Assembly: GCA_001596155.1 (NCBI GenBank) | Contig: CP014771.1 | Coordinates: forward strand, 3,410,001-3,474,000 | Direction: 5' to 3' | Origin: Hymenobacter psoromatis | GTDB taxonomy: Bacteria; Bacteroidota; Bacteroidia; Cytophagales; Hymenobacteraceae | Length of the DNA: 64,000 nucleotides | Part shown: piece after piece, positions 1 to 64,000 of the stretch | Position numbering within the stretch: position 1 is the first letter of the stretch | Layout: the number at the start of each line of letters is the position of its first letter | The notes under the pieces: generated by a model | The model's database searches: none | Told to the model about the DNA's origin: nothing | What the model saw: the letters and a program-made list of their open reading frames with translations, nothing else | Translations under genes and position numbers: made by a program

Positions 1-24
1 GCTTTTTGTGAGACCTGAAAATAG

Positions 25-83
25 TACGTCATTTTCGTAGGTAGCTAGTTGAAAATCAGCTAGCTACTCGTAAAAATGACGTA
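25..83. repeat. hairpin repeat downstream of hflX
   Basis: The arms tacgtcatttt and aaaatgacgta enclose a second complementary pair (gtagctag / ctagctac). The element lies just beyond the hflX stop and could act as a terminator or as a dispersed hairpin. It has no poly-T tail on the hflX side. Confidence 0.55.
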
Positions 84-111
84 TGCCAGGCCGGCTACGA
101 GGGGTAGCCCT

Positions 112-1452
112 CTACCCCCCGTAACCGGCCTGAAAGTGCGGGAAGCGCTTGGCCGCCAGCTCGCCCACGCGGCGGGCCAGCAGCTCACGCAGGGCTTCGA
201 TGTTCTCCTTGTTTTGGGCCGAGATGAACACCACCGGGTCGTGCAGGCGGGCCATGTAGGTTTCTTGGAGTTGCTCCAGCGGCGGGCGCGGGGCGGGCGC
301 GGCCTGGTCGGTGGGCCATTCGGCTTCGGCGTCATCGTCTGCTTCGAAGACGGGGGCGGGGCTTTCTTCTGATTTATATTGGTCTATCTTGTTGAATACC
401 AGTAGCATCGGCTTGTCGGCCGCCCCGATTTCGCGCAGCGTCTCGTTTACCACCTCGATTTGCTCCTCGAAGGCCGGGTGCGAGATGTCCACGACGTGCA
501 CCAGCAAGTCGGCCTCCCGAATTTCGTCCAGCGTGCTCTTAAAGCTCTCAATCAGCTTGGTGGGCAATTTGCGGATAAACCCGACCGTATCGGAGAGCAG
601 GAACGGCACGTGGTTGTCGAGCACCACCTTGCGCGTGGTGGCGTCCACGGTGGCAAACAGCTTGTTTTCGGCGAAGACTTCGGCCTTGCCCAGCAGGTTC
701 ATAATCGTGCTTTTGCCCACGTTGGTGTAGCCCACCAGCGCCACCCGGATGCTGTTAGTGCGCGTCTTGCGCTGGGTGTGGGCCTGCTTGTCCAGGTCTT
801 CGAGCTTTTCTTTGAGGAACGCGATGCGGTCGCGCACGATGCGGCGGTCGGTTTCAATCTCCGTTTCGCCGGGACCCTTCATGCCCACGCCGCCACGCTG
901 CTTGTCCAGGTGAGTCCAGAGGCCGGTGAGGCGGGGTAGCAAGTACTGATATTGGGCCAGCTCGACCTGCGTGCGCGAGGTGGCCGACTTGGCCCGCAGC
1001 GCAAAAATATCCAGAATGAGCAGCGACCTATCCACGATTTTGACTCCCAGCTCGGCCTCCAGGTTGCGCAGCTGCGAGGGCAGCAGCTCATCGTCGAAGA
1101 CGACCATGCTGGTCTTTTCGTGCTTCACCCAGGCCTTGATTTCGGCCAGCTTACCCTCGCCCACGTAGCTGCGCAAGTCGGGCTTGTCGAGCTTCTGCAC
1201 GAAGCGCTTGGTGGCCTGCGCGCCGGCCGTTTCGATGAGGAACGCCAGCTCGTCTAGGTACTCGGTGGTCTGGGCGTCGGTTTGGCGGCGTGGGGGCACG
1301 CTCACGAGCACGGCGGTTTCGACTTCCTTGGCCGTTTCGTGGGTCTTGGTTTTGAGCAGCCGGTCGAGCTTGGTGTCGCGGCGGGCGGGCGTGTGGTCGG
1401 TAGCGCCGACGTGCCGGGTGCTGCTATGGGAATTTTCGGATTGTTTGGCCAT
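112..1452 (-). CDS. hflX: GTPase HflX
   Basis: HflX is a ribosome-associated GTPase of the Obg-HflX superfamily that binds the 50S subunit and helps rescue or split stalled ribosomes in the cytoplasm. The N-terminal HflX domain (about residues 45-230) ends in the family signature GPGETEIETD (193-202). The G domain has G1 GYTNVGKST (241-249), G3 DTVGF (288-292) and G4 NKID (354-357). An acidic and proline-rich insertion follows G4 (about 362-392), and SAQ of G5 comes after it. At 446 aa it is slightly longer than usual because of a variable N-terminus and this insert. The gene ends in Gly-Gly-TAG, where the TAG is part of the recurrent GGGGGGTAG motif. Confidence 0.96.
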   Translation of the reverse strand: MAKQSENSHSSTRHVGATDHTPARRDTKLDRLLKTKTHETAKEVETAVLVSVPPRRQTDAQTTEYLDELAFLIETAGAQATKRFVQKLDKPDLRSYVGEGKLAEIKAWVKHEKTSMVVFDDELLPSQLRNLEAELGVKIVDRSLLILDIFALRAKSATSRTQVELAQYQYLLPRLTGLWTHLDKQRGGVGMKGPGETEIETDRRIVRDRIAFLKEKLEDLDKQAHTQRKTRTNSIRVALVGYTNVGKSTIMNLLGKAEVFAENKLFATVDATTRKVVLDNHVPFLLSDTVGFIRKLPTKLIESFKSTLDEIREADLLVHVVDISHPAFEEQIEVVNETLREIGAADKPMLLVFNKIDQYKSEESPAPVFEADDDAEAEWPTDQAAPAPRPPLEQLQETYMARLHDPVVFISAQNKENIEALRELLARRVGELAAKRFPHFQAGYGG

Positions 1453-1542
1453 TAAATAGAACGCGGGAAAGCCGCACCAGATAAGAACATCAAGTACGGG
1501 CTAATCGTTGGGAATTGGCTGGTCTGGCTCGCGCCACCGCCG

Positions 1543-1610
1543 CCTACCCCCCTTTACGCAAAGCGCCCGCCCTGGGGGGTGAGCAGGCACCGTTTGCAAA
1601 GGGGGGTAGG
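1543..1610. terminator. hairpin after the M16 peptidase gene
   Basis: Arms CCTACCCCCCTTT and AAAGGGGGGTAGG, extended by GCAAA/TTTGC, start two bases beyond the stop codon of the minus-strand M16 gene. This is one of several places where the recurrent CTACCCCC motif forms both arms of a hairpin. Confidence 0.6.
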
Positions 1611-1611
1611 G

Positions 1612-4383
1612 CTACGGCTGCGGCTTGGCGGCCGACTTAGATGCCCGCGCGAAGTCACCAGCCTTCACGATGGTCAGCTTGCTGTAATCGAGGTACTTGC
1701 GGGCGGCGGCGCTCACCTGCTCGGGCGTGAGGGCGGCAATGCGCTGCTCCAGCTGCGCATCGTAGGCGAAAGTGCGGCCCTCAGCCTTGGTCAGGTACTG
1801 CGCCCAGGTGCTGGCCACGTTACGGTCGTCGGCGCGCTGCACCTGAAAGGCTTGCAGGGCCGCCGATTTGGCGGCTTTCAACTCGTCGGCCGTCACGCCG
1901 TCTTTGGCCAGGCGCTCCATTTCTTCGCGGTAGGCCGCTTCGAGGCGGGCCGAGTTGTCGGGGTTGTAGATGGCGTAGGTCGTGAAGCTCCCCACCTCGT
2001 CGTTGTCGTCGGCACTCACGAATGAGCCCACGCCGTAGCTCACGCCCTCCTTCTGCCGGATGCGGGTGGCCAGGCGCGAGTTCAGGAAGCCATCGCCCAG
2101 AATGTAGTTGGCCATGTACACGGCCGGGTAGTCGGGCGAGTCGTCGCGCAGCGGATATTTCAGCATGGTCACAAACATAGCGTTGGCCTTGTCGTTAGTT
2201 TGCAGGGCCTGCGTACTGGCCGCCACCGGAAAAATTTGCAGCGGAATCCGCACGTAGGGCGTGGCGGCCTGCCAGGAGCCGAGCTGCTTGGCCAGGCGCT
2301 GGCGCAGGGCCGGCTCGTCGAAGGTGCCCACCACGGCCAGGGTAGCGCTCTGGCCCCCGTAAAACTGCTTGTAGAAGGCCCGCACGTCCTCCACGGTCAG
2401 GGCCTTGAGGGCCGCAATCTGCTCGTCATACGGCAGGGTAGCCATGATGTGGCCCTGGGGCCAGGGCTCGGCCGTGCGGGTAGCCAGGTTGAAGGCCAGC
2501 GCCTGGGGGTCTTGCTTGCGGGTTTCGAGGCTCGCCAGGGTTTCCTGCTTGAGCTTGTCGAACTCGCCGGCCGGAAAAGTGGGATTGCGCAGGCAGTCGA
2601 GGGCAATATCCAGCACGCTGGGCAAGTGCGTTTTATCGGTCTGAATAGCCACGGTGGCCGTCTGCCCCCCGCCGTAGAAATAAACCTGGGCTTTGGCTTT
2701 ATCAAAAGCATCCCGAATCTGGGCGTAGCTGCGGGTTTTGGTGCCGCGCTGCAACATGCTGGCCGTGAGTGAACTCAGGCTCGATTTGTTCATCAGGGTA
2801 GCCTCTGAGCCGTAGCGCAGCTTCAGCTCGGCGTTCACGGCGTTGGCGCGGTTCTGCTTTTCGAGCAGGGCGTACCGGAGGCCGTTTTTCAGCTGGCCGT
2901 GCTTGGTGCGGGCGTCAATGTTGGCGGGCGAGGCGTCGAAAGCCTCGCCCAGCGCGATGGGCGCGTCGCCCTTGTAGCCCCGCACCAGCGCCGCCACGTC
3001 GGGCGGGGCCGGAATGGTGCTGCGGTCGGGCTTATTATCCGGGATAAACTCGCCCACGGTGCGGTTGCTGGGCTTGAGGTAGGCGGCGGCCACGCGCTGC
3101 ACGTCGGCGGCGGTGAGCTTGCGCAGGTTGTCGCGGTAGAGGTACACCAGCCGCCAGTCGCCGGTAGCAATGTACTCGCTCAGGGTCAGGCCCAGCTCGT
3201 CGCTTTTCTGAAAAAGCAACTCCACGTCTTTCAGCAGTTTGGTTTGGGCGCGGGTCACTTCCTCGGCGGTGGGCGGCTGGGTGGTGGCCACGGCATCGAG
3301 CGCGCCCGTCATGGCCGTGCGGGCCGAATCGAGGGAGCGGCCCTGGCGCACATCGGCGTAGAAATAAGCAAAGCCGGGGTCGTGCAGCGTGGGCGCGAAG
3401 CCCCAGGTGCTGGCGGCTTTCTTGCTATCAATCAGCGCCTTATACAAGCGGCCCGAGGGGCGGTTGGTGAGCACTTCCACCAGCGCGTCCACGGCCGCGT
3501 AGTCGGGGCTGGAACCGGCGGGCACGTGGTAGGCCATCGCCAGGCCCTGGGTGTCGCCGGGGCGGCGCAGCGTCACCGCTCGCTCGCCGTCCTGCACGGG
3601 CTCGGTGGTGTAGGCCGTGGGCAGCACCCGCGTGGGCGTCGGGATGGCCCCAAAATCCTGGCTGATGAGGGCCAGCGTCGAGGCGGGGTCAAACTTGCCG
3701 GCCACCAGCAGCACGGCGTTGTCGGGCTGGTAGTATTTCTGGTAAAACGCCTTGAGGTTGTCAATCGGCACGCGCTCAATGTCTTCCTTCGAGCCAATGG
3801 TGCTCTTGCCGTAGTTGTGCCAGAGGTAGGCGCTACTCAGCACGCGCTCCATAAGCACCCGGCTGGGCGAGTTTTCGCCGCTCTCAAACTCATTGCGCAC
3901 CACCGTAAACTCGGTGTCGAGGTCTTTTTTGGCGATGAAGGAGTTCACCATGCGGTCGGCTTCCAGGTCGAGCGCCCACTTCAGATTCGTATCGGTGGCC
4001 GAAAACGTCTCGAAGTAATTGGTGCGGTCATACCAGGTGCTGCCGTTGGGGCTGGCCCCGTGCTCGGTCAGCTCCTGCGGGATATTGGTGTGCTTGGTAG
4101 AACCCTTGAACACCATGTGCTCCAGCAGGTGAGCCATGCCGCTTTCGCCGTAGCCCTCCAGCCGCGAGCCCACCAGATAGGTGATGTTGACGGTGGCCGT
4201 GGGCTTGCTCTGGTCCGGGAAGAGCAGCACCCGCAGGCCGTTGGCCAGCCGGTATTCGGTGATGCCCTCCACGGCAGTCACCCGCGTGAGGCCGGCGGGC
4301 AAGGGGGGGGTAGGGCTTTGGGCCAGCAGCGGCCGGGCCGCCCAGCTCAGGGCGAGCACGCCCAGCAGGAAAGTGTGTTTCAT
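1612..4383 (-). CDS. M16 family zinc metallopeptidase (pitrilysin/insulinase-like), exported
   Basis: A signal peptide (residues 1-21, ending near LLAQS) predicts a periplasmic or surface-associated peptidase. The inverted zinc motif HLLEH is at 85-89, with a downstream acidic stretch (NEFE, about 165) that supplies the third ligand. The protein is 923 aa with two tandem M16 halves. The second half, from about residue 480, lacks an HxxEH motif, as usual for the inactive half of single-chain M16 enzymes. It probably degrades peptides. It stands alone between hflX and a cytochrome gene, and the two flanking minus-strand genes are separated from it by hairpin-containing gaps. The long plus-strand open frame over this gene is a shadow of the GC-rich codons. 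Confidence 0.93.
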
Positions 4384-4499
4384 ACGGCTAAAAGGGTAAG
4401 GGGTAGTAATATAGCGCGAAGTAATAGCATTCTGTGCTTACTCCATCCCCTACCCCCTCCAGATGCGCGCCCCGCGGCCAGCGTTGCACCGCGCCCGAC

Positions 4500-4919: not shown

Positions 4920-4920
4920 T

Positions 4921-6045
4921 GTGCGGGTTGCTATCGTTATTAATACGTCCTGGAACATCTGGAATTTCCGGCGCGGGCTGGTGAAAGCCCTGCAAGCCGC
5001 CGGCCACGAGGTGCTGGCCATCGCGCCGCCCGACGACTACTCGGCGCGCCTCGAAAGTGGGCTGGGCTGCCGCTACGTGCCCATCCTGATGGAAAACAAG
5101 GGCACCAACCCGCTCAAAGACGCGCAGCTAACGCGCCGGTTTTTAGGTGTTTATAAGCGCGAGCGGCCCGATGTGGTGCTGCATTTCACCATCAAGCCCA
5201 ACATCTACGGCACGCTGGCGGCGCGGCTGGCGGGCGTGCCCAGCATCAACAACGTAAGCGGCCTGGGCACGGTCTTCATCGTGGAAAATCTGGTGAGCAA
5301 AGTGGCGCGCGGGCTGTATCGGCTGGCGTTTCAGTTTCCGCACAAGGTCTTTTTTCAGAACAATGACGACCGCGAATTATTCATTCGCTACGGGCTCATC
5401 AAGCCGGCGCGCACGGGCCTGGTGCCCGGCTCGGGCGTCGATTTGGCGCGCTTCCGGCCGCAGGAGGGGGTAGGGCCCGCGCCGGCCGCGCCGTTCACGT
5501 TCCTCATGGTGGCGCGCGTGCTGTATGAGAAAGGCATCGTGGAATATTTTGAGGCCGCGCGGCAGGTGCGGGCCGCGCTGGGGGCCGACCGGGTGCGCCT
5601 GCAATTGCTGGGTGGCCTCGACGAAGCGGGGGGGGTAGGGATGCCCCGCGCCACCTTCGAGCAGTGGCTGAAGGAAGGCAACGTGGAGTACCTGGGCACT
5701 TCCGACCACGTGGCTGAGCACCTGCACCGCGCTGATTGCGTGGTGCTGCCCAGCTACCGCGAAGGCACGCCCAAAACCCTGCTCGAAGCGGCGGCCTGCG
5801 GCAAACCCCTGGTAACCACCGACGTGCCCGGCTGCCGCGAAACCGTGCAAAACGGCCGCAACGGCTATCTCTGCGCAGTGCGCTCGGCCGCCGACCTGGC
5901 CGATAAGCTCCTCACGGTGGCCCAGCTGCCCGCCGCCCGCCTCGCCGCAATGGGCCAGGCCAGCCGCCAGCTGGCCGAAGAGAAATTTGACGAGCAGCTG
6001 GTGCTGCGCCAGTACTTGGCCGCCGTGGCCGAGGCGGGTTCCTAG
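4921..6045 (+). CDS. GT4 family glycosyltransferase
   Basis: A 374-aa GT-B fold enzyme (PF13477/PF00534-type, similar in layout to PglA-like transferases) that transfers a sugar to a lipid-linked or polysaccharide acceptor at the cytoplasmic membrane face. The N-terminal acceptor domain starts with VAIVINTSWN. The C-terminal donor domain holds the EX7E pair E281/E289 in EGTPKTLLEAAACGKP. The GTG start is chosen because the conserved strand begins immediately after it; no upstream ATG keeps the frame. A TAnnTTTG-like string overlaps this GTG, so it is probably not its promoter. Two recurrent GGGGGTAGGG motifs are translated in frame (EGVGP, about 182; GGVGM, about 237). Together with the downstream rfbC it points to surface polysaccharide synthesis. 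The exact sugar is unknown. Confidence 0.88.
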   Translation: MRVAIVINTSWNIWNFRRGLVKALQAAGHEVLAIAPPDDYSARLESGLGCRYVPILMENKGTNPLKDAQLTRRFLGVYKRERPDVVLHFTIKPNIYGTLAARLAGVPSINNVSGLGTVFIVENLVSKVARGLYRLAFQFPHKVFFQNNDDRELFIRYGLIKPARTGLVPGSGVDLARFRPQEGVGPAPAAPFTFLMVARVLYEKGIVEYFEAARQVRAALGADRVRLQLLGGLDEAGGVGMPRATFEQWLKEGNVEYLGTSDHVAEHLHRADCVVLPSYREGTPKTLLEAAACGKPLVTTDVPGCRETVQNGRNGYLCAVRSAADLADKLLTVAQLPAARLAAMGQASRQLAEEKFDEQLVLRQYLAAVAEAGS

Positions 6046-6076
6046 TTTCTGGTTTGGGTTTTTGGTCGAAAACCTC

Positions 6077-6175
6077 TGTCATTGCGAGCTTGCGAAGCAA
6101 TCGCACCTGAGCGACGCCCGCGCCGCTCGTTCGTTCATTGTCATGGCGAGATTGCTTCGCAAGCTCGCCATGACA
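6077..6175. repeat. REP-like hairpin (TCATTGCGAGC family)
   Basis: Arms tgtcattgcgagcttgcgaa and ttcgcaagctcgccatgaca surround a variable centre. Related hairpins with the same plan occur at 36761-36856, 50005-50131 and 61231-61350. Confidence 0.75.
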
Positions 6176-6217
6176 AATGCCTGTATAAAAATCAGAAAAC
6201 CAGTAGTTAAAGAAAAT

Positions 6218-8349: not shown

Positions 8350-8430
8350 GGCCCTACCCCCCCCTCACCAACGAAAGCCCCCATACCAGACCGGCATGGG
8401 GGCTTTCGTTGGTGAGGGGGGGGTAGGGCC
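8350..8430. terminator. near-perfect bidirectional hairpin between convergent genes
   Basis: Arms of about 33 bases (ggccctacccccc... and its complement ...ggggggtagggcc) with the inner stem accaacgaaagcccccat. It sits between the TMEM175 remnant and minus-strand ytxJ, and the outer arms are the recurrent motif in both orientations. Confidence 0.8.
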
Positions 8431-9198: not shown

Positions 9199-9846
9199 CT
9201 AGGGGCGGTTGCCGTCGGGCGCGGGCTGCGTGGGGTCGGGCTTCGGAATGGGGACTTTTTTGTCTTTGGCCTGCTTCTGCTTTGCCTTGGGGGCCGGGGC
9301 GAGGGTAGGGTCGGCGGGCGGCGGGGGGTCGGGCGTGGGCTCGGCGGGCTGGTCTTTGGTGCGCGTTGGGGCCGGGTCCTTGGCGTCTTTCCCGTGGTTG
9401 TGGTGGCCTTTTTTGCGCAGCTTACGGTTTTCGCGGCTCGCCTCGCGCGGGGTCAGGGGGCGGTTGTCGTAGTGGTGCAGCTTGCGGCGGTTGTCCTGCA
9501 GGCGGTTCAGGGTGCTTTTTTTCACGAGGCCCTGCTTGTCATATTTGAGCTTGGTGCCCTCGGGCAAGTCGCTGTACGACATCGTTTTCTTCTTCTCATC
9601 GGCCGCGCCGGCATCGGCCCCCGCGCCAGCATCGGCAGCCGAAATTGCCTCCATTGCCTTGAGGGAGGTGCCCTTGTGGCGCGCTTTTTCAGCAGCTTTC
9701 GCCTTCGCCTTGGCGGTGGCGTTCATAGGGGGGGTAGGCAGCCGACGCGGATGAAACACGCGGTCGTACACCGCGCAGCCGCCGAGCAGCCCCAGCAGCA
9801 CGGGCAGCAGCAGCACCCGCAACCACGGCGTTGGTAAAGCCTTCAC
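9199..9846 (-). CDS. hypothetical lipoprotein with charged and proline-rich tail
   Basis: 215 aa with a GTG start. The signal peptide ends in a lipobox (LLGGC, about residues 20-24). A Lys/Ala-rich helical segment follows, then a central conserved-looking part (MSYSDLPEGTKLKYDKQGLV, about 88-107), then Lys/Pro-rich low-complexity sequence to the end. It is probably attached to a membrane. No known domain recognised. The neighbour at 8867-9172 reads the same way and may be in one transcript. Confidence 0.65.
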   Translation of the reverse strand: MKALPTPWLRVLLLPVLLGLLGGCAVYDRVFHPRRLPTPPMNATAKAKAKAAEKARHKGTSLKAMEAISAADAGAGADAGAADEKKKTMSYSDLPEGTKLKYDKQGLVKKSTLNRLQDNRRKLHHYDNRPLTPREASRENRKLRKKGHHNHGKDAKDPAPTRTKDQPAEPTPDPPPPADPTLAPAPKAKQKQAKDKKVPIPKPDPTQPAPDGNRP

Positions 9847-9900: not shown

Positions 9901-11973
9901 CTAATAGTCGCGCAGCGCCCGCAGCTGCTCGCGCAGCCGCTGCTGCGGCAAAAACCCTGCCTCAAGCGGCGGCGCGAAGGGCACGGCCGTATCGAGCGAG
10001 GCCACGCGGCGCACCGGCGCGTCGAGGCTGCTAAAGCAGTTTTCGGCAATCCAGGCCGCGATTTCGCCGCCCAGGCCGCCCGTCAGCGTGTCTTCGTGCA
10101 GGATGAGCACGCGGCCGGTTTTGCGCACCGAGCGGCCCACGGCCTCCGCATCCCAGGGCAGCAGCGTGCGCAAGTCGAGGATGTCGGCCTGAATTTCCAG
10201 CTCTTTGCACGCGGCCAGTGCCCAGTGCACGCCCATGCCGTAGGTAATGATGCTCAAGTCATTACCCTCCTGCGCCAAGGCCGCCTGGCCGATGGGCGTG
10301 GTGTAGTACGCCTCCGGCACCGGCCCGCTCAGCGAGCGGTAGAGCAGCTTGTGCTCAAAATACATGACCGGGTTGGGGTCTTCAAACGCGGCGCAGAGCA
10401 GGCCCTTGGCGTCGTGCGGGTTGCTAGGATACACCACTTTCAGGCCCGGCACGTGCGTGAACCACGCCTCGTTGCTCTGGCTGTGGAAGGGCCCGGCCGC
10501 CGAGCCCGCGCCGGTGGGCATGCGCACTACCACGTCGGCATTTTGGCCCCAGCGGTAGTAGCTCTTGGCTAAGTTATTGACAATCTGATTGAAGCCGCAG
10601 GTCACGAAGTCGGCAAACTGCATCTCCACCATCGCCTTTTTGCCCCGGATGCTCAGCCCCAGCCCCGCCCCCACGATGGCCGACTCGCACAGCGGCGTGT
10701 TGCGCACCCGACCCTTCCCAAACTCGGCCACGAAACCATCGGTAATCTTAAACACGCCGCCGTATTCAGCAATGTCCTGGCCCATGAGCACCAGTTCGGG
10801 AAAGCGCTCCATGCTCTGCCGCAGCCCCTGCTGGATGGCATCGATGAAGCGGATTTCTTTAGTTAAGAGTTGAGAGTTGAGAGTTAAGAGTTGTTCATTA
10901 TCCGTCAAATTCTCACTTTCTGACCCTCCCCCCTTCATTTTATCAGCATCATCCGGCAAACTCTTAACTCTTAACTCTTCACTCTTCACTCCCGACGGCG
11001 CGTACATATCGGCCAGCTCGCGGGTGTTGTCGGGGGTAGGGGCCGGGGCGGCCTCGCTCTCCTGCCAGCCGGTTTCTATCTCCTGCTTGATGCTTTCGCG
11101 GACCTGCACGCGGCTGGTTTCGCTGAGAATGCCCTCAGCCAGCAGCCACTTTTCATAGGTTCCCACGGGGTCTTTCTGCGCCCACTCTTGCAGCAGCTCG
11201 GCGGGCACGTACTTGGTGCCGCTGGCCTCTTCGTGGCCGCGCATCCGGAAGGTCAGGGCCTCCACCAGCACTGGGCGCGGGTTTTGGCGCAGGTCTTCGG
11301 CCAGGGTTTTGATTTTATCATAGACTTCGAGCACGTTGTTGCCGTCAATCTGCACGGCCTCCATGCCATAGGCGGGGCCTTTATCCACGAAGGACTTGAA
11401 ATGAAACTGCTCGTTGCTGGGCGTGCTGAGGCCATAGCCGTTGTTTTCTACTAAGAAAATAACCGGCAGCTGCCACACCGCCGCCACGTTCAGCGCCTCG
11501 TGGAAGTCGCCCTCGCTGGCCCCGCCGTCGCCGGAATAGGTGAGCGTTACGCGGGGCTTCTCGTCCAGCAAATCGGCCAGCGCGATGCCGTCGGCCACGG
11601 CCAGCTGCGGGCCGAGGTGCGAAATCATGCCCACGATGTGGTGCTCGTTGGTGCCGAAGTGAAACGAGCGGTCGCGCCCCTGGGTGTAGCCCGTGGCCTT
11701 GCCCTGCCACTGCGCAAACAGCCGCCCCAGCGGCACCCCGCGCCCCGTGAACACGCCCAGGTTGCGGTGCAGGGGTAGGATATACTCGTCGGCGTTCAGC
11801 GCTAGCGTGCTGCCCACCGAGATGGCTTCCTGCCCGATGCCCGAAAACCACTTGCTGACCTTGCCCTGGCGCAGCAGAATCAACATTTTTTCCTCAATCA
11901 GGCGTGGCTTCAGCAGCTCGCGGTAGAGGTGCAGCAGCAGGTCGTTGGGGTAGTCTTTGCGGTCAAAGGTCAT
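9901..11973 (-). CDS. 2-oxoacid dehydrogenase E1, alpha and beta subunits fused
   Basis: Thiamine-diphosphate E1 component (pyruvate or branched-chain 2-oxoacid type) that decarboxylates the oxoacid and acylates the lipoyl group of E2. The alpha half (1 to about 320) has the ThDP motif GDGGASEGDFHEALN...ENNGYG. The beta half (about 372-690) starts at IRFIDAIQQGLR and contains MGQDIAEYGGVF and ESAIVGAGLGL. Fusion of both chains is common in Bacteroidota. The linker (about residues 329-371) is encoded by a low-GC insertion made of aactctta/gagttaag repeats, described separately. No E2 or E3 gene is adjacent. A TAnnTTTG box lies about 35 bases upstream of the start. Confidence 0.93.
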   Translation of the reverse strand: MTFDRKDYPNDLLLHLYRELLKPRLIEEKMLILLRQGKVSKWFSGIGQEAISVGSTLALNADEYILPLHRNLGVFTGRGVPLGRLFAQWQGKATGYTQGRDRSFHFGTNEHHIVGMISHLGPQLAVADGIALADLLDEKPRVTLTYSGDGGASEGDFHEALNVAAVWQLPVIFLVENNGYGLSTPSNEQFHFKSFVDKGPAYGMEAVQIDGNNVLEVYDKIKTLAEDLRQNPRPVLVEALTFRMRGHEEASGTKYVPAELLQEWAQKDPVGTYEKWLLAEGILSETSRVQVRESIKQEIETGWQESEAAPAPTPDNTRELADMYAPSGVKSEELRVKSLPDDADKMKGGGSESENLTDNEQLLTLNSQLLTKEIRFIDAIQQGLRQSMERFPELVLMGQDIAEYGGVFKITDGFVAEFGKGRVRNTPLCESAIVGAGLGLSIRGKKAMVEMQFADFVTCGFNQIVNNLAKSYYRWGQNADVVVRMPTGAGSAAGPFHSQSNEAWFTHVPGLKVVYPSNPHDAKGLLCAAFEDPNPVMYFEHKLLYRSLSGPVPEAYYTTPIGQAALAQEGNDLSIITYGMGVHWALAACKELEIQADILDLRTLLPWDAEAVGRSVRKTGRVLILHEDTLTGGLGGEIAAWIAENCFSSLDAPVRRVASLDTAVPFAPPLEAGFLPQQRLREQLRALRDY
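10861..10990. repeat. in-frame GAGTTAAGA/TCTTAACTC repeat inside the E1 gene
   Basis: Multiple copies of gagttaaga and gagttgaga on the left and of aactcttaactctt on the right form a potential stem with a central unrelated loop. The element is AT-rich against GC-rich flanks, and its length keeps the reading frame open. It encodes SEELRVKS at one end and NEQLLTLNSQLLT at the other. Confidence 0.85.
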
Positions 11974-12007
11974 GGCGGGGGGTAGGGCGGGGAGGCAGAG
12001 TGCCGGG

Positions 12008-14687: not shown

Positions 14688-14695
14688 TGAAAAAA

Positions 14696-15853: not shown

Positions 15854-15895
15854 AGTAGTAGAGTTTAAATTGCGCTGCCAGGCAAGCGATGCAAA

Positions 15896-15903
15896 CAAAG
15901 TTA
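15896..15903 (-). promoter_or_regulatory. -7 promoter box for the methyltransferase gene
   Basis: TAACTTTG on the minus strand fits TAnnTTTG and predicts a leader of about 35 bases. Confidence 0.4.
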
Positions 15904-16699: not shown

Positions 16700-16755
16700 A
16701 GTGAAAAAGCGTTCGGGAGTAAGGGGGGGTAGGGCCGAAAAGAGCCCCCGCAAAG

Positions 16756-19752: not shown

Positions 19753-19987
19753 GATGCGAGTAAGTAGGTGAGAGGTGGTAAGTTGGGAGATACTACACGC
19801 GGCCGGCCGGCACATCCCAACGACAGCCCCGCCCCGCCCAGGGTTGCGTGGCCCCGCACTAATAAGCTGGCCGCCCGCGGCGTTGGCTTCGGCCGCCAGC
19901 CGGGGGGTAGGGCACCGCCCGCCCCGCGCGCCGGGCCGCCCCGCCGCTTCCGGGCCGCGCCCGTGCCCATCAATCGGCCGGCCGATG

Positions 19988-46235: not shown

Positions 46236-46252
46236 GGCGGCGTGAAATTACG

Positions 46253-46840: not shown

Positions 46841-46978
46841 AAGCGGGGGGTAGGGAATAAAAAAGAAAGGGGCCGGCAGCAACCGCGCGGCGGCTGTTCC
46901 CGAAACGGCTCGCGGGGGCAAGTCGTTCGGGAAGGGCTACCGCGCGGCCACTACCGGCCCCGCTACCTCAATTTTGGC

Positions 46979-48674: not shown

Positions 48675-48703
48675 GCCGGTCCCTACCCCCCCGCTTTTGA
48701 CTG

Positions 48704-50004: not shown

Positions 50005-50131
50005 TTTAGAAAGTCGGCAGCCCGTCATTCCGAGCTTGCCGAGGAATCTCGCTCGCATCGTAAAACGACGCCCGAACGATTGCGGGCGAGATTCCTCGGC
50101 AAGCTCGGAATGACGTTCTACCGACTTTTCT
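50005..50131. repeat. REP-like hairpin (GTCATTCCGAGC family)
   Basis: Inner arms cgtcattccgagcttgccga / tcggcaagctcggaatgacg and outer arms gaaagtcgg / ccgactttt. The same plan as the hairpins at 6077, 36761 and 61231. Confidence 0.8.
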
Positions 50132-52938: not shown

Positions 52939-53100
52939 GAAGCTGTTTAGGAAGTCGGCCTTGCGGCGGGCTGCCGGCTTTTTTTGCCGGCTGTCCGCTC
53001 GTCGTGTGCGCCATTCGTTCTTTCAGCGAGCGGACAGCCGGCAAAAAAAAGCCAGCAGCCCGCCGCGAATGCTGCATACCTGCACTTCCTAAACAGCTTC
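52939..53100. repeat. long imperfect palindrome (about 160 bp)
   Basis: The outer arms gaagctgtttaggaagt / acttcctaaacagcttc and long inner arms (gcggcgggctgccggc... and cgagcggacagccggc...) can form an extended hairpin with T and A runs in the stem. Between the divergent MscS and DUF2079 genes. Confidence 0.75.
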
Positions 53101-53187: not shown

Positions 53188-54717
53188 ATGCTACTCGTGC
53201 TTTCCACCTGGCCAGCAAAATACTGGCGCTCGGCGCTGCTGCTCGTTTTCGGCTTGATTTACAGCCTGATTTCGCTGGTCAATCAGTGGAACTTCCGCAC
53301 GGCGGCCCTCGACCTGGGCTTCACGGCGCAGGCCGTGGCCGATTTTGCCCACCTGCGGGCTCCGCGCGTGACGCTGCTGCTCGATGCCCCGCCCACCAGC
53401 TTCCTGGCCAACCACTTCAGCCTCACGCCCGCGCTGGCCGCGCCGCTCTACTACCTGGTGGGTGGGGCCTGGGCGCTGCTGCTGCTGCAAATTGGGGCGG
53501 TGCTACTGGGGCTGCTGGGCACCTGGCACTACGCCCGCGCCCAGGGGGGTAGCCCCCGCGCCGCCAACTGGGCCCTGGCGCTGCTAGGCTGCCAATGGGG
53601 CGTGTATTCCGCGTTTAGCTTTGATTATCACGACAATGTGCTGGGCGCGATGGCCCTGCCCTGGCTGGCGCTGTGGGTGGCGCAGGGCAGGGGGGGTAGG
53701 GCGGCGCTGGCTGCGCTGTTCATCCTGGTGAGCAAAGAAAACCTGGCGCTGTGGCTGGTGTGCGTGCTGCTGGGCCTGGCCTGGCAGCACCGGGCGCACC
53801 GGGCGCGGGTGGGCTGGCTGGTCCTGGGCGCGGTGGCATCACTGGCTTACTACCAGGTTATTACGCGCTACGTGATGCCGGCTCTTGATACCACGCACCG
53901 GCCCTTTACCCAGCTGGTGCGCTATGCCTGGTTGGGGCCGTCGCTGCCGGCGGTGCTGGCCAACGTGCTCACGCACCCGGCGCGGCTGTGGGCGGTGTTG
54001 TTTCAAAACACCCTGCCCGATGCCAGCTACGACTACATCAAGCTGGAAACCTGGGGTGCCGTGCTGGTGTCGGGCGGCTGGGCGCTGTGGCGCCGGCCCT
54101 GGTACGTGCTCATGCTGCTGCCCATTCTGGCCCAGAAGCTCTTGGCCAACGACTACGGCTTTTGGGGCATTAATGGGCAGTATTCCATCGAGTTCGCGCC
54201 CGTGCTCACGCTGGCCGTGGTCGATGCGCTGCGGGGGGGTAGGGCCGCCGGGGCCGGCTTCCGGCGCCGGGCGTGGGTGGCGGCGCTGGCGGGCGCGGCC
54301 GTCTTCACGGTGGTCACGCTCTACACCCGCCGCAGCCAGTGGTACGACCGGGCCACCGGCAACTTCCTCATCGGCAGCCACTACCGCAGTCCCTACCCCA
54401 ACCGCGCTGGCCTATACGCGGCCCTGGCGCGGGTGCCCGCCGGCGTGCCGCTGAGCGCGTCTTCCAGCTTGGTGCCGCACCTGCTCGACCGGCGCGACGT
54501 GTTTTTGTTTCCTGTGTTGCGCACGGCCCGGCTGGTGGCCCTGCTGCGCGAGCCCGACGAGCACGCCGCCTGGCCGCTCTCGCAGGCCCAGGCCCGGCAG
54601 GCCGTGGCCGCGCTGCGCGCCCGCCCCAGCTATCGCGTGCTCTACGAAGATGCCCAGCTGGTGCTGCTGGCCCGCCCCGCCCCGCCCGCCGATTCGGCCG
54701 AAGTGTGGCGGCCCTAG
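53188..54717 (+). CDS. DUF2079 polytopic membrane protein
   Basis: 509 aa with about 10-12 TM helices. DUF2079 features are LDLGFTAQAVADF (about 40-52), FLANHFSLTPALAAPLYYL (about 70-88) and FSFDYHDNVLGAMALP (about 148-163). The family has a GT-C-like membrane topology, and a glycosyltransferase-type role has been proposed but not shown. Recurrent GGGGGTAGGG motifs are translated in frame three times (QGGSP, RGGRA twice), in loops between helices. Confidence 0.88.
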   Translation: MLLVLSTWPAKYWRSALLLVFGLIYSLISLVNQWNFRTAALDLGFTAQAVADFAHLRAPRVTLLLDAPPTSFLANHFSLTPALAAPLYYLVGGAWALLLLQIGAVLLGLLGTWHYARAQGGSPRAANWALALLGCQWGVYSAFSFDYHDNVLGAMALPWLALWVAQGRGGRAALAALFILVSKENLALWLVCVLLGLAWQHRAHRARVGWLVLGAVASLAYYQVITRYVMPALDTTHRPFTQLVRYAWLGPSLPAVLANVLTHPARLWAVLFQNTLPDASYDYIKLETWGAVLVSGGWALWRRPWYVLMLLPILAQKLLANDYGFWGINGQYSIEFAPVLTLAVVDALRGGRAAGAGFRRRAWVAALAGAAVFTVVTLYTRRSQWYDRATGNFLIGSHYRSPYPNRAGLYAALARVPAGVPLSASSSLVPHLLDRRDVFLFPVLRTARLVALLREPDEHAAWPLSQAQARQAVAALRARPSYRVLYEDAQLVLLARPAPPADSAEVWRP

Positions 54718-54718: not shown

Positions 54719-54797
54719 GCCGGCCCTACCCCCCCAGCCCGAGGCCTTGGTAGAAGTGCGCCAGCAGCAGCGTGGCCCCCACGCTACTCCCGCCGCG
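54719..54797 (-). pseudogene. possible 3' remnant of an unidentified gene
   Basis: Directly after the Uma2 stop, in the same minus-strand frame, 25 codons read RGGSSVGATLLLAHFYQGLG and end in GG-TAG within a CCCTACCCCCC motif. It looks protein-coding but has no start. It could be the tail of a lost gene or chance. Confidence 0.3.
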
Positions 54798-55418: not shown

Positions 55419-55494
55419 AAAAGCAGGCGGGCTAAGAGCGAAGAATGCAAGTTATTCAAAAGTACGCCCTACCCCCCAACCCCGTTCAGAGCCT

Positions 55495-56196: not shown

Positions 56197-57498
56197 GTGT
56201 ACGACGAACTCCTCCGCAAAGAAGCCAAGCTGGCCGTGATTGGCCTCGGCTACGTGGGCCTGCCCATCGCCCTCGAATTTGCCAAGCAACTCTCGGTTAT
56301 CGGCTTCGATATCAACGCGGGCCGCGTGGAGATGATGCGCAACCACCAGGACCCCAGCGGCGAGCTGGACAGCGCCGCCTTCGATGGCTGCGACATCGCC
56401 TTCACCGACTCGCTCGATGTGCTGCGCGAGGCGCGCTTCTTCATCGTGGCCGTCCCTACCCCCATCGACGAGCACGCCCAGCCCGACCTCAAGCCGCTGC
56501 TCAGCGCGTCGATGTCGGTGGGTAAGGTCTTGAAAAAAGGGGATTACGTGGTGTTTGAGAGCACCGTGTATCCCGGCTGCACCGAGGAAGACTGCATCCC
56601 GGTGATGGAGAAACAGTCGGGCCTGAGCTTCGCCCACGGCGATTTCAAGGTCGGCTACTCGCCCGAGCGCATCAACCCCGGCGACAAGGAGCACACCCTG
56701 CGCCGCATCGTGAAGGTGGTGAGCGGCTGCGACGCCGAAAGCCTCGACACCGTGGCCAAAGTCTATGAGCTGGTGGTGGATGCCGGCGTGCATCGCGCCA
56801 GCAGCATCCGGGTGGCCGAGGCCGCCAAGATTATCGAGAACACGCAGCGCGACGTCAACATCGCGCTCATGAACGAGCTGTCGATGATTTTCGACCGCAT
56901 GAATATCAACACCTACGAGGTGCTGGAAGCGGCCGGCACCAAGTGGAATTTCCTGAAATTCTCGCCCGGCCTGGTGGGCGGCCACTGCATCGGCGTGGAC
57001 CCGTACTACCTGACTTACAAGGCCAAAGAGCTGGGCTACGACGCGAAAGTCATTCTCTCGGGCCGCACCACCAACGATAACATGGGGGCCTATATCGCCC
57101 GCAAAACGGTGCAGATGATGATTAAGCGCGGCAAGGACGTGGCCAAAAGCCGCGTGCTGGTGATGGGCGCTACCTTCAAGGAAAACGTGGAGGACATCCG
57201 CAATTCTAAAGTGGCGGACGTGATTCAGGAGCTGAAAAACTTCTCCGTGAACGTGGACATCGTGGACCCGCACGCCAGCTCCGACGAGCTGCACCACGAA
57301 TACGGCTTCCGCCTCACCGACGCGGACAAGATTCGCGACGACTATGATGCCGTTATCGTGGCCGTGAGCCACAAGCCTTATCTCAACAAAGACGAAGCGT
57401 ACTTTCAGTCCATCACGGCCAGCAACGCCGTACTGGTCGATATCAAAGGCCTGTACCGCGCCAAGCCGATGGAGGACTTGCACTATTGGAGCTTGTAA
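56197..57498 (+). CDS. UDP-N-acetyl-hexosamine 6-dehydrogenase (TviB/WbpO-like)
   Basis: A 433-aa nucleotide-sugar dehydrogenase oxidising a UDP-HexNAc to the uronic acid with two NAD+. NAD motif GLGYVGLP (about 16-23), VPTPIDEHAQPDL, STVYPGCTEEDC, and catalytic C264 in GGHCIGVDPYYL. Similarity in layout is to the Vi-antigen enzyme TviB and WbpO. A WbpP/TviC-like 4-epimerase lies four genes downstream, so UDP-GalNAcA formation is plausible. GTG start. Confidence 0.92.
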   Translation: MYDELLRKEAKLAVIGLGYVGLPIALEFAKQLSVIGFDINAGRVEMMRNHQDPSGELDSAAFDGCDIAFTDSLDVLREARFFIVAVPTPIDEHAQPDLKPLLSASMSVGKVLKKGDYVVFESTVYPGCTEEDCIPVMEKQSGLSFAHGDFKVGYSPERINPGDKEHTLRRIVKVVSGCDAESLDTVAKVYELVVDAGVHRASSIRVAEAAKIIENTQRDVNIALMNELSMIFDRMNINTYEVLEAAGTKWNFLKFSPGLVGGHCIGVDPYYLTYKAKELGYDAKVILSGRTTNDNMGAYIARKTVQMMIKRGKDVAKSRVLVMGATFKENVEDIRNSKVADVIQELKNFSVNVDIVDPHASSDELHHEYGFRLTDADKIRDDYDAVIVAVSHKPYLNKDEAYFQSITASNAVLVDIKGLYRAKPMEDLHYWSL

Positions 57499-60221: not shown

Positions 60222-61229
<1,008 letters not shown>

Positions 61230-61230
61230 A

Positions 61231-61350
61231 AAGAACGTCGTGCTGAACGCAGTGAAGCATCTCTACCGCGTAAGTAATTTTTAACGATTGAATTACTTAC
61301 GCGGTAGAGATGCTTCGGCAGGCGGACGCCAGATAAGCATGACGTTCTTT
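61231..61350. repeat. REP-like hairpin (AACGTCGTGCTGAAC family)
   Basis: Outer arms aagaacgtcgtgctgaacgc / gcatgacgttctt and inner arms gcatctctaccgcgtaag / cttacgcggtagagatgc. Lies between the epimerase and rfbA. Confidence 0.8.
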
Positions 61351-61370
61351 CACCAACAATTAACTATCCT

Positions 61371-62249
61371 ATGAAAGGTATTATTCTCGCCGGCGGCTCC
61401 GGCACCCGTTTGCACCCGCTCACGCTCGCTGTCTCGAAGCAGTTGATGCCCGTTTACGACAAGCCGATGATTTACTACCCCCTGTCGATTTTGATGATGG
61501 CGGGCATTCGGGAAATTCTCATCATCACTACCCCCCACGACCAGGAGCAATTCAAAAAGCTGCTCGGCGATGGCAAAAACCTGGGCTGCAACTTCCAGTA
61601 CGTGGTGCAGGAATTGCCCAACGGCCTGGCCCAAGCCTTCGTGCTGGGTGCCGACTTCATCGGCCAGGATAAAGTAGCCTTGGTATTGGGCGACAACATC
61701 TTCCACGGCGAAGGCATGGAAGAGCTGCTTAAGGCCAATAACGACCCCGAGGGGGGGGTAGTGTACGCCTACCACGTCCACGACCCCGAGCGCTACGGCG
61801 TAGTCGAGTTCGACGAGAACAAGGTGGCCCTCAGCATTGAAGAAAAGCCCACGAGCCCCAAGAGCAACTACGCCGTGCCGGGGCTGTATTTCTATGATAA
61901 TGACGTGGTTGAAATCGCTAAAAACCTGGAGCCCAGCCCGCGCGGCGAGTACGAAATCACGGACGTAAACCGCGAGTACCTGCGCCGCGGCAAGCTGAAA
62001 GTAGGCATCCTGGGCCGCGGCACGGCCTGGCTCGACACCGGCACCTTCGAGAGCCTGATGCAGGCCGGCGAATTCGTGCGGGTGCTGGAGCAGCGCCAGG
62101 GCCTCAAGGTCGGCTCCATTGAGGAAGCCGCTTTCCGCCAGGGCTTTATCGACGCCGACCAGCTTCGCACCATTGCCGCACCCCTGCGCAAGAGCGGCTA
62201 CGGCGACTACTTGCTGAACCTGCCCGACCAACTGGTAATGGGGGGGTAG
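61371..62249 (+). CDS. rfbA: glucose-1-phosphate thymidylyltransferase
   Basis: 292-aa RmlA. It joins Glc-1-P and dTTP to dTDP-glucose, the first step of the dTDP-sugar pathway. [20 protein letters not shown] (8-27) is the nucleotide-binding signature, with [40 protein letters not shown] and [15 protein letters not shown]. The last codons (VMGG-TAG) lie in a GGGGGGGTAGGG motif. Final gene of the cluster; a perfect hairpin terminator follows. Confidence 0.97.
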
Positions 62250-62272
62250 GGCCTGCTATTTTATAGTTAACA

Positions 62273-62328
62273 CCATGAGGCCCAACAGTCCGCTCCTGCG
62301 TGCAGGAGCGGACTGTTGGGCCTCATGG
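62273..62328. terminator. perfect hairpin terminator after rfbA
   Basis: 26-base perfect arms (beginning ccatgaggcccaacagtccg) around a 4-base loop, between the convergent rfbA and SDR genes. No T run, so it may act as a barrier for both strands. Confidence 0.7.
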
Positions 62329-62348
62329 CGTTGATTTCTGCCTCCTGC

Positions 62349-63173
62349 CTATTCCCCTTCGGTGGAGAGCGCCAGGTCTTTTTGGGCGTCCAGCTCGGCC
62401 AGGCGGGCAGTTAGCGCCGCGCGCATATCGGTGTAGGCATCGCGGCCCAGGGCCAGCCGGCGCGGGGCGGGGTTCTGGTCCACTGAGGCTATCATGGCCT
62501 GCACCACTTTAGCGGCATCGCCCTTGATGGGAAACGCCCCGGAGGCTATGGCCCGGCGCACGTCGCCGGCGGGCGTGGGCTCGTACTCGTCCATCACGGG
62601 CGCGCTGACCATGCCGCTGGCGAAGCTGGTTTTGGTGGCTCCCGGTTCCACGATAGTCACGCCGATGTGGAACGGCGCAACTTCCTGAGCGAGCGTATCG
62701 GCGAAGCCTTCGATGCCCCACTTGGTGGCGTGGTAGTAGCTGAAGTTGGGGTAGGTCGTCTGGCCGCCGGCCGAGGAAAGCTGCAAAATCCGGCCGCCGC
62801 CCTGCGCCCGCAGGTGGGGTAGCGCCGCCCGAATAACCCGGATGGAACCCAGCAGGTTGGTATCCAGCTGCTGGCGAATCTGCTCGTCGCTGGCTTCTTC
62901 GCTCGCGCAGTACAGCGCGTACCCCGCGTTGTTGACGATAACATCCACGCGGCCCAACTCAGCGAAGGCGCTGTCCACTACCCGTTGCACGGCCGCCGCA
63001 TCGGTCACGTTGAGCCGGGCTACCCAGAGTCGCTCGCCGTACTGCGCCTGTAATTCAGCGAGTGCTTCGGGCTGGCGCAGGGTGGCCGCCACGCGGTCGC
63101 CGCGCCGCAAAAGTTGTTCTGTCAGCCCCCGGCCGAGGCCCGCTGAGGTGCCGGTAATAAACCACGTTTTCAT
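62349..63173 (-). CDS. SDR family oxidoreductase (classical)
   Basis: 274 aa. TGTSAGLGRGL Rossmann loop (about 6-16), NNAGYALYCASEE, Ser in LQLSSAGGQ, YHATKWGIEGF (Y-x-x-x-K) and PGATKTSF. Resembles short-chain reductases of the uncharacterised oxidoreductase group in Bacteroidota. The start at 63173 gives the family N-terminus. The AraC-type gene immediately upstream on the same strand is probably its regulator or in the same unit. Confidence 0.92.
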   Translation of the reverse strand: MKTWFITGTSAGLGRGLTEQLLRRGDRVAATLRQPEALAELQAQYGERLWVARLNVTDAAAVQRVVDSAFAELGRVDVIVNNAGYALYCASEEASDEQIRQQLDTNLLGSIRVIRAALPHLRAQGGGRILQLSSAGGQTTYPNFSYYHATKWGIEGFADTLAQEVAPFHIGVTIVEPGATKTSFASGMVSAPVMDEYEPTPAGDVRRAIASGAFPIKGDAAKVVQAMIASVDQNPAPRRLALGRDAYTDMRAALTARLAELDAQKDLALSTEGE

Positions 63174-63260
63174 GCGGAGTTGCTTTAAAAAAGTACTCCG
63201 CAAAGGTCCGAGCCCACGCAGCGGGCTCACTGACGATTTTCCAACCAATACTGACCCGAA

Positions 63261-64000
63261 TCAAACCTGGCGCAGCTGCGAGGGCGTGTGCTGGGTGTGG
63301 CGGCGAAAAAACTGCGTGAAGTGCGTCGGCTCCTCGAAGCCTAGGCAGTAGCTGATGTCGGCGATGGGCCAGTCAGTGTGCAGCAGCAGGGCGCGCGCTT
63401 CCTGCACCAGGCGCTCGGCCAGCAGCTGGGTGGTCGAACTGCCGGTTTCCGCTTTCAGCGCGCGGCTCAGGTAGTTGACGTGCACCGCCAGCCGGTCGGC
63501 AAACGCCTGGGCCGTGCGCAGCTCCACCCGCTGAGCCGATGTAAAAATGGGAAACTGCCGGGACAGTAAGTCCTGAAAGGCGGTAGCCAGCCGGGCGCTG
63601 GCCGTAGTGCCGCGTACCGCGGCGGCGGGCATCAGCTTCTGCGCTTCATACACGCAGGTCATCAGGTAGTGAAAGAGCAGCTCGTATTTGTGGGGGTAGG
63701 GCGAATCCTGTTCGGCCAGCATTTTGGTGAAGAAAGGCTCAAAATCAACCTTTTGCGCTGCGGTCAGATAAAAGAACGCGGGCTCGTGCGGAGCAAAAAC
63801 CGGCAGGTCGCCGGGGTGCAGGCGGGTGTGCGTAGGCAGAAAATCGGCGGTAAAGAGGCAGCAGTAACCGTAGGTCGTGGCGCCATTCAGCTCCCAGCTG
63901 TAGGGCTGGTGCGTGTCGGTAAAAACCAGGGCAAACTGCCCGGCCGCCAGGTGCCGCTGCTGGTCAGCGTAGTGATAAGTAGCCGGCCCGGTGGCTGCGG
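63261..64000 (-). CDS. AraC family transcriptional regulator, 5' part outside the window
   Basis: The reading frame is open to the window edge, giving at least 245 residues. A complete C-terminal HTH_18/AraC domain is present (FADRLAVHVNYLSRALKAET and IADISYCLGFEEPTHFTQFF). The N-terminal part (AAGQFALVFTDTHQPYSWEL, HPGDLPVFAPHEPAFFYLT) fits the ligand-binding cupin-like domain. An internal ATG at 63722 is not the start. It precedes the SDR gene in the same direction, suggesting regulation of it. Confidence 0.9.
   Translation of the reverse strand, partial: AATGPATYHYADQQRHLAAGQFALVFTDTHQPYSWELNGATTYGYCCLFTADFLPTHTRLHPGDLPVFAPHEPAFFYLTAAQKVDFEPFFTKMLAEQDSPYPHKYELLFHYLMTCVYEAQKLMPAAAVRGTTASARLATAFQDLLSRQFPIFTSAQRVELRTAQAFADRLAVHVNYLSRALKAETGSSTTQLLAERLVQEARALLLHTDWPIADISYCLGFEEPTHFTQFFRRHTQHTPSQLRQV

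Follow-up and report, generated by a model that had tools for sequence, protein, structure and literature searches.

A polar ten-base word of Hymenobacter psoromatis as one clade's dialect of a highly iterated sequence

The closest described counterparts of the word reported here are the highly iterated palindromes (HIPs) of cyanobacteria, HIP1 and its alternates, which occur at 0.3-2.7 copies per kb and have been explained by a model of methylation-directed repair (PMC4390886), and the uptake sequences of the Neisseriaceae, where each genome holds a 10-mer in about 900 to 5900 copies and the dialects follow clades (Frye 2013, PMC3630211); it is the available parts of these and the other cited papers that we draw on. 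In those parts, uptake sequences are described as free of orientation bias round the chromosome (PMC1939737, PMC2346458), Chi (GCTGGTGG in E. coli) as polarised, relatively slow to evolve and present once per 5 kb (PMC8022716), and architecture imparting sequences (AIMS) as words whose abundance and bias increase towards the terminus (PMC5993296). Here we analyze CCCTACCCCC, a non-palindromic 10-mer, together with its shorter form CTACCCCC, in a 64,000-nucleotide stretch of the Hymenobacter psoromatis chromosome (the window; positions 3410001-3474000 of contig C3 of G000, our handle for the source genome of 5,451,254 bases in three contigs).

We conclude that CCCTACCCCC is almost certainly one Hymenobacter clade's dialect of a highly iterated sequence, best read as a recognition sequence. 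The feature is real and strong, its dialects change fast within one genus, and it is best filed beside HIPs and uptake sequences. Among the literature matches listed, mostly without subscription papers, there was nothing on such motifs in Hymenobacter.

Abundance and placement in the source genome

Counting in the window gave 71 copies of CTACCCCC (35 on the plus and 36 on the minus strand) where an order-2 Markov model with both strands combined expects 1.85, and 40 of these sit inside the full CCCTACCCCC (15 plus, 25 minus; 0.13 expected). A first-pass annotation, made from the sequence alone, had put the 8-mer at about 60 copies against about five expected by chance; the count and the excess held up, and the Markov expectation proved lower. 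A maximal-order model expects 66.8 copies of CTACCCCC, but its sub-words belong to the motif itself. Genome-wide, CCCTACCCCC reaches 2313 copies (1101 + 1212), compared with 7 (4 + 3) for the reversed word. In a 464-kb chromosome sample, comprising the window and 20 stretches of 20 kb taken one every 250 kb, CTACCCC occurs 660 times (1.42/kb) and CCCTACCCCC at 0.474/kb. On the chromosome there is one CTACCCC per ~0.7 kb and one CTACCCCC per ~1.1 kb.

The copies lie on both strands and both within and between genes, as had been proposed. Using our own simple gene calling, which also underlies the synonymous-shuffle and leading-strand counts of G000, we assigned 485 CTACCCC to called genes (1.36/kb) and 174 to intergenic DNA (1.63/kb). 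Shuffling synonymous codons predicts just 78.3 in-gene CTACCCC, and 3.9 in-gene CCCTACCCCC against the 143 observed, an excess that holds for every strand and frame and rules out plain codon usage as the cause; base composition was likewise ruled out by 7-mers of the same composition. The commonest translations of in-gene CCCTACCCCC are Pro-Thr-Pro (54 of 143) and Gly-Val-Gly (37 of 143), the two named in the first-pass annotation, and its remark on stop codons was borne out by 20 of 364 called genes ending in GGGG-TAG, where the shuffle expects 2.4 for that frame. Copies also occur in hairpin arms, as at window position 90-135, but these are a minority: inward-facing neighbours no more than 25 bp apart number five pairs in 464 kb, which rules out terminator hairpins as the main role. 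The run of C after TA, previously given as 5 to 8 bases, measured 4 to 8 in 650 of 653 copies with a search minimum of four. Near-miss counts, whose background was drawn from genomes other than the 24 with a known or suspected dialect, revealed a sharp core, CTACCC, loose flanking outer C-runs, and an over-abundance of single-step C-to-T decay forms at several positions.

The sites in the window, including those referred to below, are as follows (coordinates, strand, feature; ORF, open reading frame):

4448-4457, plus, CCCTACCCCC
8352-8361, plus, CCCTACCCCC
23332-23341, plus, CCCTACCCCC
24216-24225, plus, CCCTACCCCC
28936-28945, plus, CCCTACCCCC
31158-31167, plus, CCCTACCCCC
32415-32424, plus, CCCTACCCCC
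37426-37435, plus, CCCTACCCCC
38573-38582, plus, CCCTACCCCC
40206-40215, plus, CCCTACCCCC
48681-48690, plus, CCCTACCCCC, absent from G034, where the alignment is gapped
49239-49248, plus, CCCTACCCCC in a gene; relatives have different letters at equal length
54724-54733, plus, CCCTACCCCC
55467-55476, plus, CCCTACCCCC
56454-56463, plus, CCCTACCCCC of synonymous origin; relatives keep Val-Pro-Thr-Pro-Ile, with GTGCCCACGCCCATC (G021) against GTCCCTACCCCCATC
1602-1611, minus, CCCTACCCCC
4306-4315, minus, CCCTACCCCC; different letters and a 3-base gap in G021
5466-5475, minus, CCCTACCCCC, shared by G034; CTACCCCC only in G014, unlike letters in G020, G005 and G021, equal length throughout
5631-5640, minus, CCCTACCCCC
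8419-8428, minus, CCCTACCCCC
11032-11041, minus, CCCTACCCCC
11978-11987, minus, CCCTACCCCC directly upstream of the start of ORF 9901-11973 (minus)
16725-16734, minus, CCCTACCCCC
17554-17563, minus, CCCTACCCCC
18323-18332, minus, CCCTACCCCC
19411-19420, minus, CCCTACCCCC
19903-19912, minus, CCCTACCCCC
31295-31304, minus, CCCTACCCCC
31612-31621, minus, CCCTACCCCC
39899-39908, minus, CCCTACCCCC
40487-40496, minus, CCCTACCCCC
40600-40609, minus, CCCTACCCCC
43370-43379, minus, CCCTACCCCC
46228-46237, minus, CCCTACCCCC spanning the stop codon, TAG, that closes the MutS ORF 43464-46235 (plus)
46846-46855, minus, CCCTACCCCC directly upstream of an ATG
53692-53701, minus, CCCTACCCCC, common to G034 and G014
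54235-54244, minus, CCCTACCCCC
60329-60338, minus, CCCTACCCCC in a plus-strand gene; relatives encode Ala-Lys and G000 Val-Gly, and G034 alone of five aligned relatives shares it
62242-62251, minus, CCCTACCCCC
63692-63701, minus, CCCTACCCCC
90-135, plus, hairpin whose two arms each contain the motif, located where ORF 112-1452 (minus) ends

Origin of sites and dialects across Hymenobacter

Comparing the window by BLAST with stretches of six relatives, we found a motif-length insertion at none of the covered in-gene sites, the only gap at such sites in these alignments being the 3 bases of G021 at 4306; the comparison covers in-gene sites, intergenic ones being mostly not alignable. These ungapped orthologous sites rule out insertion as a unit in genes. 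Against G020, which has no dialect and an aligned identity of 0.82, 22 of 23 G000 sites differ by 1-5 substitutions, one is identical and none is gapped, and G005 (22 sites) and G021 (20 sites) follow the same pattern with one gapped site each. The orthologous places carry near-misses, mostly 1-3 differences from the motif. In G034 (identity 0.88), 23 of 37 motif sites are kept, as are 29 of 71 words of the same composition. Motif codons have a lower amino-acid identity than the rest of the same genes for G020 (0.77 vs 0.89), G005 (0.80 vs 0.89), G021 (0.66 vs 0.88), G034 (0.85 vs 0.92) and G014 (0.83 vs 0.88), the exception being G028 (0.95 vs 0.91, over 22 codons only). From site conservation and this lowered identity it follows that sites turn over and partly override protein constraint. 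CCTAGG sites of related species likewise arise in place, as where GCGCTGGGC stands against GCCCTAGGG with Ala-Leu-Gly retained. Together, these findings demonstrate that the word is not mobile and is created where it stands through base substitutions, some of which alter amino acids.

The earlier assumption of a single motif for the genus gave way to a different picture, in which CCCTACCCCC is one dialect among several, possessed by a five-genome clade, with close variants in two other clades. Among 81 genomes of the genus, CCCTACCCCC reaches at least 100 copies in 11: G034 (2318), G000 (2313), G014 (1890), G028 (1404), G072 (562), G073 (495), G055 (492), G026 (347), G059 (325), G060 (306) and G053 (178). 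G021 and G033 hold 66 and 60, and the remaining 68 genomes 3-39, including the close relatives G020 and G005, where the word is nearly absent (12 and 13 copies). A sample of 291 genomes of the order added one genome of the same genus, G335, with 2050 copies; of 258 genomes from beyond the genus, not one reached 100, the highest holding 78 (control 31) and the next 64 (control 0).

To find other dialects we screened sampled sequence of 63 genomes, in most cases a single 20-kb stretch, for over-represented words, and added further genomes later. Genome-wide counts were made for CCCTACCCCC, CCCTAGGG and GGGGCCCC, and the other dialects rest on 1-4 sampled stretches for each genome except G000. 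Many genomes yielded no conspicuous word in a 20-kb sample, and the sample of G055 did not show CCCTACCCCC although the genome holds it. CCCTAGGG/CCTAGG stands out in G021, G033 and G071 and at a 21-kb locus from H. polaris RP-2-7; ACCTAGGT or ACCTAGCT in G061, G050 and G058; GGCTAGCC in G065 and G047; CTAGGCCA in G018; GGGGCCCC in G012, G052 and G321 and more weakly in G324; CCCTACCC in G026, G059 and G060; and CTACCCC(C) in G072 and G073. Counted genome-wide, CCCTAGGG occurs 3302 times in G071, 916 in G033, 902 in G021, 177 in G050 and 128 in G061, with at most 55 copies in the other 76 of 81 genomes. GGGGCCCC occurs 3985 times in G052, 3248 in G012 and 1301 in G037, three genomes in which the control CCCCGGGG is also raised (592, 557 and 407), with at most 139 copies in the other 78.

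On a tree of 58 genomes built from two genes (1644 columns; the second gene present in 57 of 58), dialects group by clade. The CCCTACCCCC clade comprises G000, G034, G335, G028 and G014 (support 0.979), and its sister group (join 0.756) contains G065 and G047, which carry GGCTAGCC, and G020, G005 and G043, in which no dialect was seen. Below these lie G036, also with none seen, and G021 with G033 (CCTAGG), in a weakly supported branching order (0.588). The CCCTACCC genomes G059, G060 and G026 are sister to G058, G061 and G050 with their ACCTAG forms (join 0.977), and the CTACCCC genomes G072 and G073 stand at a third position, where G053 and G055 join them. The tree therefore has CCTACCC-type words at three positions, two of them next to CTAG palindromes.

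Several further words were considered as dialects and set aside. TGACGTCA (G053) resembles a local repeat, with 6 of 8 sites within 211 bases, as does CCCCTCTC (G031), whose sites are paired; GTGCGCAC (G035) and GGGGGCAA (G010) are dispersed, but with just 7 and 12 sites, each set from a single 20-kb sample, we do not claim them. In G026, 17 of 40 CCCTACCC sites lie in one tandem array, and positions 9320-9400 of its sample L119 form an array of the pentamer CCCTA that is telomere-type-like. Contig C1 of G052 (89.6 kb, sample L158) has no GGGGCCCC in 20 kb compared with 20 sites per 20 kb on the 5.3-Mb contig, and seems not to share the genome's dialect. CTAG, at an observed/expected ratio of 0.1-0.6 in most other genomes, is relieved of its shortage (0.95-1.22) in the CTAG-dialect species G021, G033, G050, G058, G061, G018, G065, G047 and H. 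polaris L169; G039, G056, G023, G014 and G055 reach 0.74-0.97 with no CTAG-containing dialect seen.

Spacing, strand polarity and other features of the window

We analyzed gap lengths with sites less than 12 bases apart merged and with sample L158 of G052, which lacks GGGGCCCC, set aside. CCTAGG gaps were more even than random (coefficient of variation, cv, 0.81 vs 0.96; 0 of 500 simulations as low), and even spacing was also observed for GGGGCCCC (P 0.048, 51 sites) and ACCTAG (P 0.028). In G000, gaps of 0.5-1 mean gap were over-represented (198 vs 155).

When we followed the strand of CCCTACCCCC around the G000 chromosome, a polarity emerged, bearing on the strand-skew test that the first-pass annotation had called for, with plus:minus counts of 74:29 within the arc 850-3225 kb and 54:91 on the rest of the chromosome. 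In an arc-scanning test, 0 of 200 permutations of the 27 sample units and 0 of 200 random flips were as strong for CCCTACCCCC; the 7-mer gave 0 and 3 of 200, and three control words 32-68 of 200. For fixed arcs, words matching the motif in composition gave 0.50 and 0.51. Sampled GC skew is too weak to place an origin; coding DNA on the would-be leading strand amounts to 235 vs 159 kb, a 5S rRNA gene lies on the plus strand at 4.6 Mb, and from these two an origin near 3.3 Mb and a terminus near 0.8 Mb are inferred. The two arcs of strand bias fit the replication arms. On this placement the G-rich strand is the leading strand in 165 of 248 sampled CCCTACCCCC and 426 of 732 7-mers, and in 143 of 219 CTACCCC outside ORFs of at least 200 codons; within genes the figures are 107 of 282 sites for leading-strand and 176 of 231 for lagging-strand genes.

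Other features of the window were recorded alongside. The MutS gene at 43464-46235 (plus) encodes all five Pfam MutS domains, and a PF00145 C5 cytosine methyltransferase adjoins a DUF4928 protein at 13755-15898 (minus), perhaps forming, to judge by position, a restriction-modification pair. Long inverted repeats of ~100-130 bp are dispersed at 50020-50122, 61225-61352, ~6075-6180 and ~52950-53080; folding gives long hairpins for the first two (z -12.9 and -11.6), and relatives of these repeats are present in G034, G014, G005, G020, G028, G047, G065 and G335.

Candidate mechanisms and alternatives

We tentatively favor the view that the recognition sequence has accumulated through a drive that is sequence-specific and tied to recombination or repair; the mechanism behind the dialects is what we infer here. 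A DNA-binding recombination or repair component, responding to a Chi-like signal or serving self-DNA recognition in uptake and recombination, would read the sites and act on them over a range of about 1 kb. DNA with the correct site would be kept or copied over DNA lacking one, the drive would write new sites until each kilobase or so holds one, and a reader of altered specificity could lead to a genome rewritten in a new dialect. We count in its favor the in-place substitutions, the excess over the synonymous shuffle, the clade dialects, range-limited saturation and polarity, as well as the lower and uneven word density on the 200-kb contig C1 of G000 (0.67/kb vs 1.42/kb on the chromosome) despite GATC depletion there like the chromosome's. 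As with Chi, the word is over-represented, sparser on the accessory replicon, and places its G-rich strand on the inferred leading strand.

A number of observations weigh against such a drive. The cv of CTACCCC spacing in G000 is not below random (1.05 vs 0.98), nor is it significantly low for CTACCCCC or for the G034/G014/G028/G335, G065/G047 and G072/G073 sets, and one of three control words is itself slightly in excess at 0.5-1 mean gap (108 vs 95), two being not. Polarity was measured in one genome, G000; the arc-scanning test was used because the arcs had first been noticed by eye, and with fixed arcs CAGCAGC and CTGCTG also differ, though not under that test. Since genes favor the C-rich word in sense, most sites in leading-strand genes (175 of 282) have their G-rich strand on the lagging side. 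Sites of G000 are conserved in G034 just mildly above controls, and G014, which keeps 12 of 26 motif sites vs 24 of 54 control words, has no excess. Unlike slowly evolving Chi, the words differ between species at 82-84% aligned DNA identity, as in G020 and G005; they are also denser than one per 5 kb, with a polarity weaker than that of Chi in E. coli as given in the available text of PMC8022716, and have palindromic relatives, which carry no polarity. The orientation bias of the motif, for its part, is unlike uptake sequences (PMC1939737). No reader protein was identified, recombination enzymes not having been searched for.

Profile counts in 28 genomes, with and without dialects, narrowed the candidates. 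PF01555 (16 of 28) and PF00145 (10 of 28), the two methyltransferase families covered (N6/N4 and C5; other families were not searched), do not track the dialects, and G021, G059, G050, G061 and G065 have a dialect and neither family. Vsr, present in 4 of 28 and absent from G000, does not match them either, and we rejected these families and Vsr as the common factor. ComEC (PF03772) is present in 28 of 28, dialect or not, and therefore does not discriminate. Loss of GATC as the driver was dropped because GATC is equally absent from relatives that have no dialect.

The GATC loss itself is extensive. G000 has 6 copies vs 1042 expected in the 464 kb of chromosome and 8 vs 433 on C1. The observed/expected ratio is 0.00-0.02 in 13 of 15 sequence sets (two of the same species) from the window's clade and nearest relatives, 0.00 in 7 of 9 sets of the next clade and 0.05-1.04 elsewhere in the genus, except 0.00 in H. 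properus and H. frigidus, neither of which is on the tree.

A DNA uptake sequence, whereby a surface receptor prefers word-bearing DNA, uptake-biased recombination spreads the word and dialects separate species, seems to us unlikely. The available accounts of Neisseriaceae and Pasteurellaceae uptake sequences (PMC3630211, PMC1939737) resemble our data in copy number, with at least about 1000 copies of a non-palindromic ~10-mer, in density, in dialects that follow clades and in gradual origin by point mutation, and ComEC is universal in the sample. Strand polarity is foreign to uptake sequences in the available texts of PMC1939737 and PMC2346458, several related dialects are palindromic, close inward-facing pairs are rare, and competence is a candidate trait only, ComEC being non-discriminating and the receptor not searched for.

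The HIP model of Elhai 2015, which has the word marked by an orphan DNA methyltransferase, with methylation-directed mismatch repair tilting mutations towards it until there is about one site per kb, we also judge doubtful, even though the comparison with HIP1 made in the first-pass annotation turned out to be the best lead. According to the available text of PMC4390886, HIPs too are short words at about 1/kb, in and outside genes, far over Markov expectation and swapped in some relatives; the densities of CTACCCC and CCCTACCCCC in G000 and the totals of CCCTAGGG in G071 and GGGGCCCC in G052 are of that order, sites are likewise created in place, and the dialects CCCTAGGG, GGCTAGCC, ACCTAGGT and GGGGCCCC are palindromes, several dialects being GC-rich ones. 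The model fits less well with a polar, non-palindromic CCCTACCCCC and with two methyltransferase families and Vsr that do not track dialects in the 28 genomes, and Hymenobacter words form clades, unlike the alternate HIPs, which that text calls sporadic.

Rather improbable is a chromosome-architecture signal, a polar word used by a nucleoid, segregation or FtsK-type reader to organise or orient the chromosome, as AIMS or the FtsK-orienting polar sequences (KOPS) do. The KOPS consensus of E. coli is GGGNAGGG, with N free, and is strongly polar. GGGTAGGG fits it and, like CCCTACCCCC, is in excess on the leading strand (255 of 384), but only this T form is frequent, GGGAAGGG, GGGCAGGG and GGGGAGGG numbering 6, 53 and 22. 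One third of copies have the opposite orientation, density does not rise to the inferred terminus as AIMS would (correlation with distance 0.29 and 0.16, 25 samples), the word is nearly lacking in G020 and G005, and palindromic dialects cannot orient. The first-pass proposal of a recombination or segregation signal gains weight from polarity and stays a candidate.

Neutral mutational bias with no reader agrees with the excess of C-to-T decayed forms, but is hard to square with a 10-mer 330 times commoner than its reverse, with its near-absence from G020 and G005 at 82-84% identity and with amino-acid changes at sites, and we regard it as very unlikely. Selection of a G-quadruplex or single-strand structure for itself, the half-site idea of the first-pass annotation, draws on the word's two G-tracts and the common C-runs of 5-8 after TA; it is highly improbable, given that two tracts make half a quadruplex, that the interior CTACCC is sharp and the outer runs loose, and that it cannot explain the family because related species carry CCTAGG, GGCTAGCC or ACCTAGCT, which have no such tracts, at comparable density. 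That there are palindromic dialects argues against a general cause in G-quadruplex, KOPS or strict Chi. A mobile micro-element inserted as a unit, also suggested at first, can be practically dismissed: gaps occur in intergenic alignments near some copies (e.g. 48683, 57531), whereas the orthologous in-gene places hold near-misses and no motif-length insertion.

Returning to the drive linked to recombination or repair, we consider it close to an even chance that Hymenobacter harbors an undescribed genome-wide recognition system whose reader can change its specificity, rewrites sites by the thousand in each genome and, within the genus, switches between the palindromes CCCTAGGG, GGCTAGCC, ACCTAGGT and GGGGCCCC and the polar CCCTACCCCC, without the methyltransferase link proposed for HIPs. 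If so, HIP1-like words would be outcomes of a general recombination or repair drive, with every stage of gain, loss and replacement observable in Hymenobacter. The significance of HIP1 is little known according to Elhai 2015 (PMC4390886, available text). Its role is difficult to test, since most cyanobacteria share one and the same word. Hymenobacter offers many species, several words, close relatives that have or lack them, and polar as well as palindromic forms, so that gene content, methylation and recombination can be compared with the dialect species by species. If the reader were found, it would explain how a DNA-binding specificity can rewrite a genome at thousands of positions to the detriment of its proteins, and it might prove to be a natural barrier between species as well as a handle for Hymenobacter genetics.

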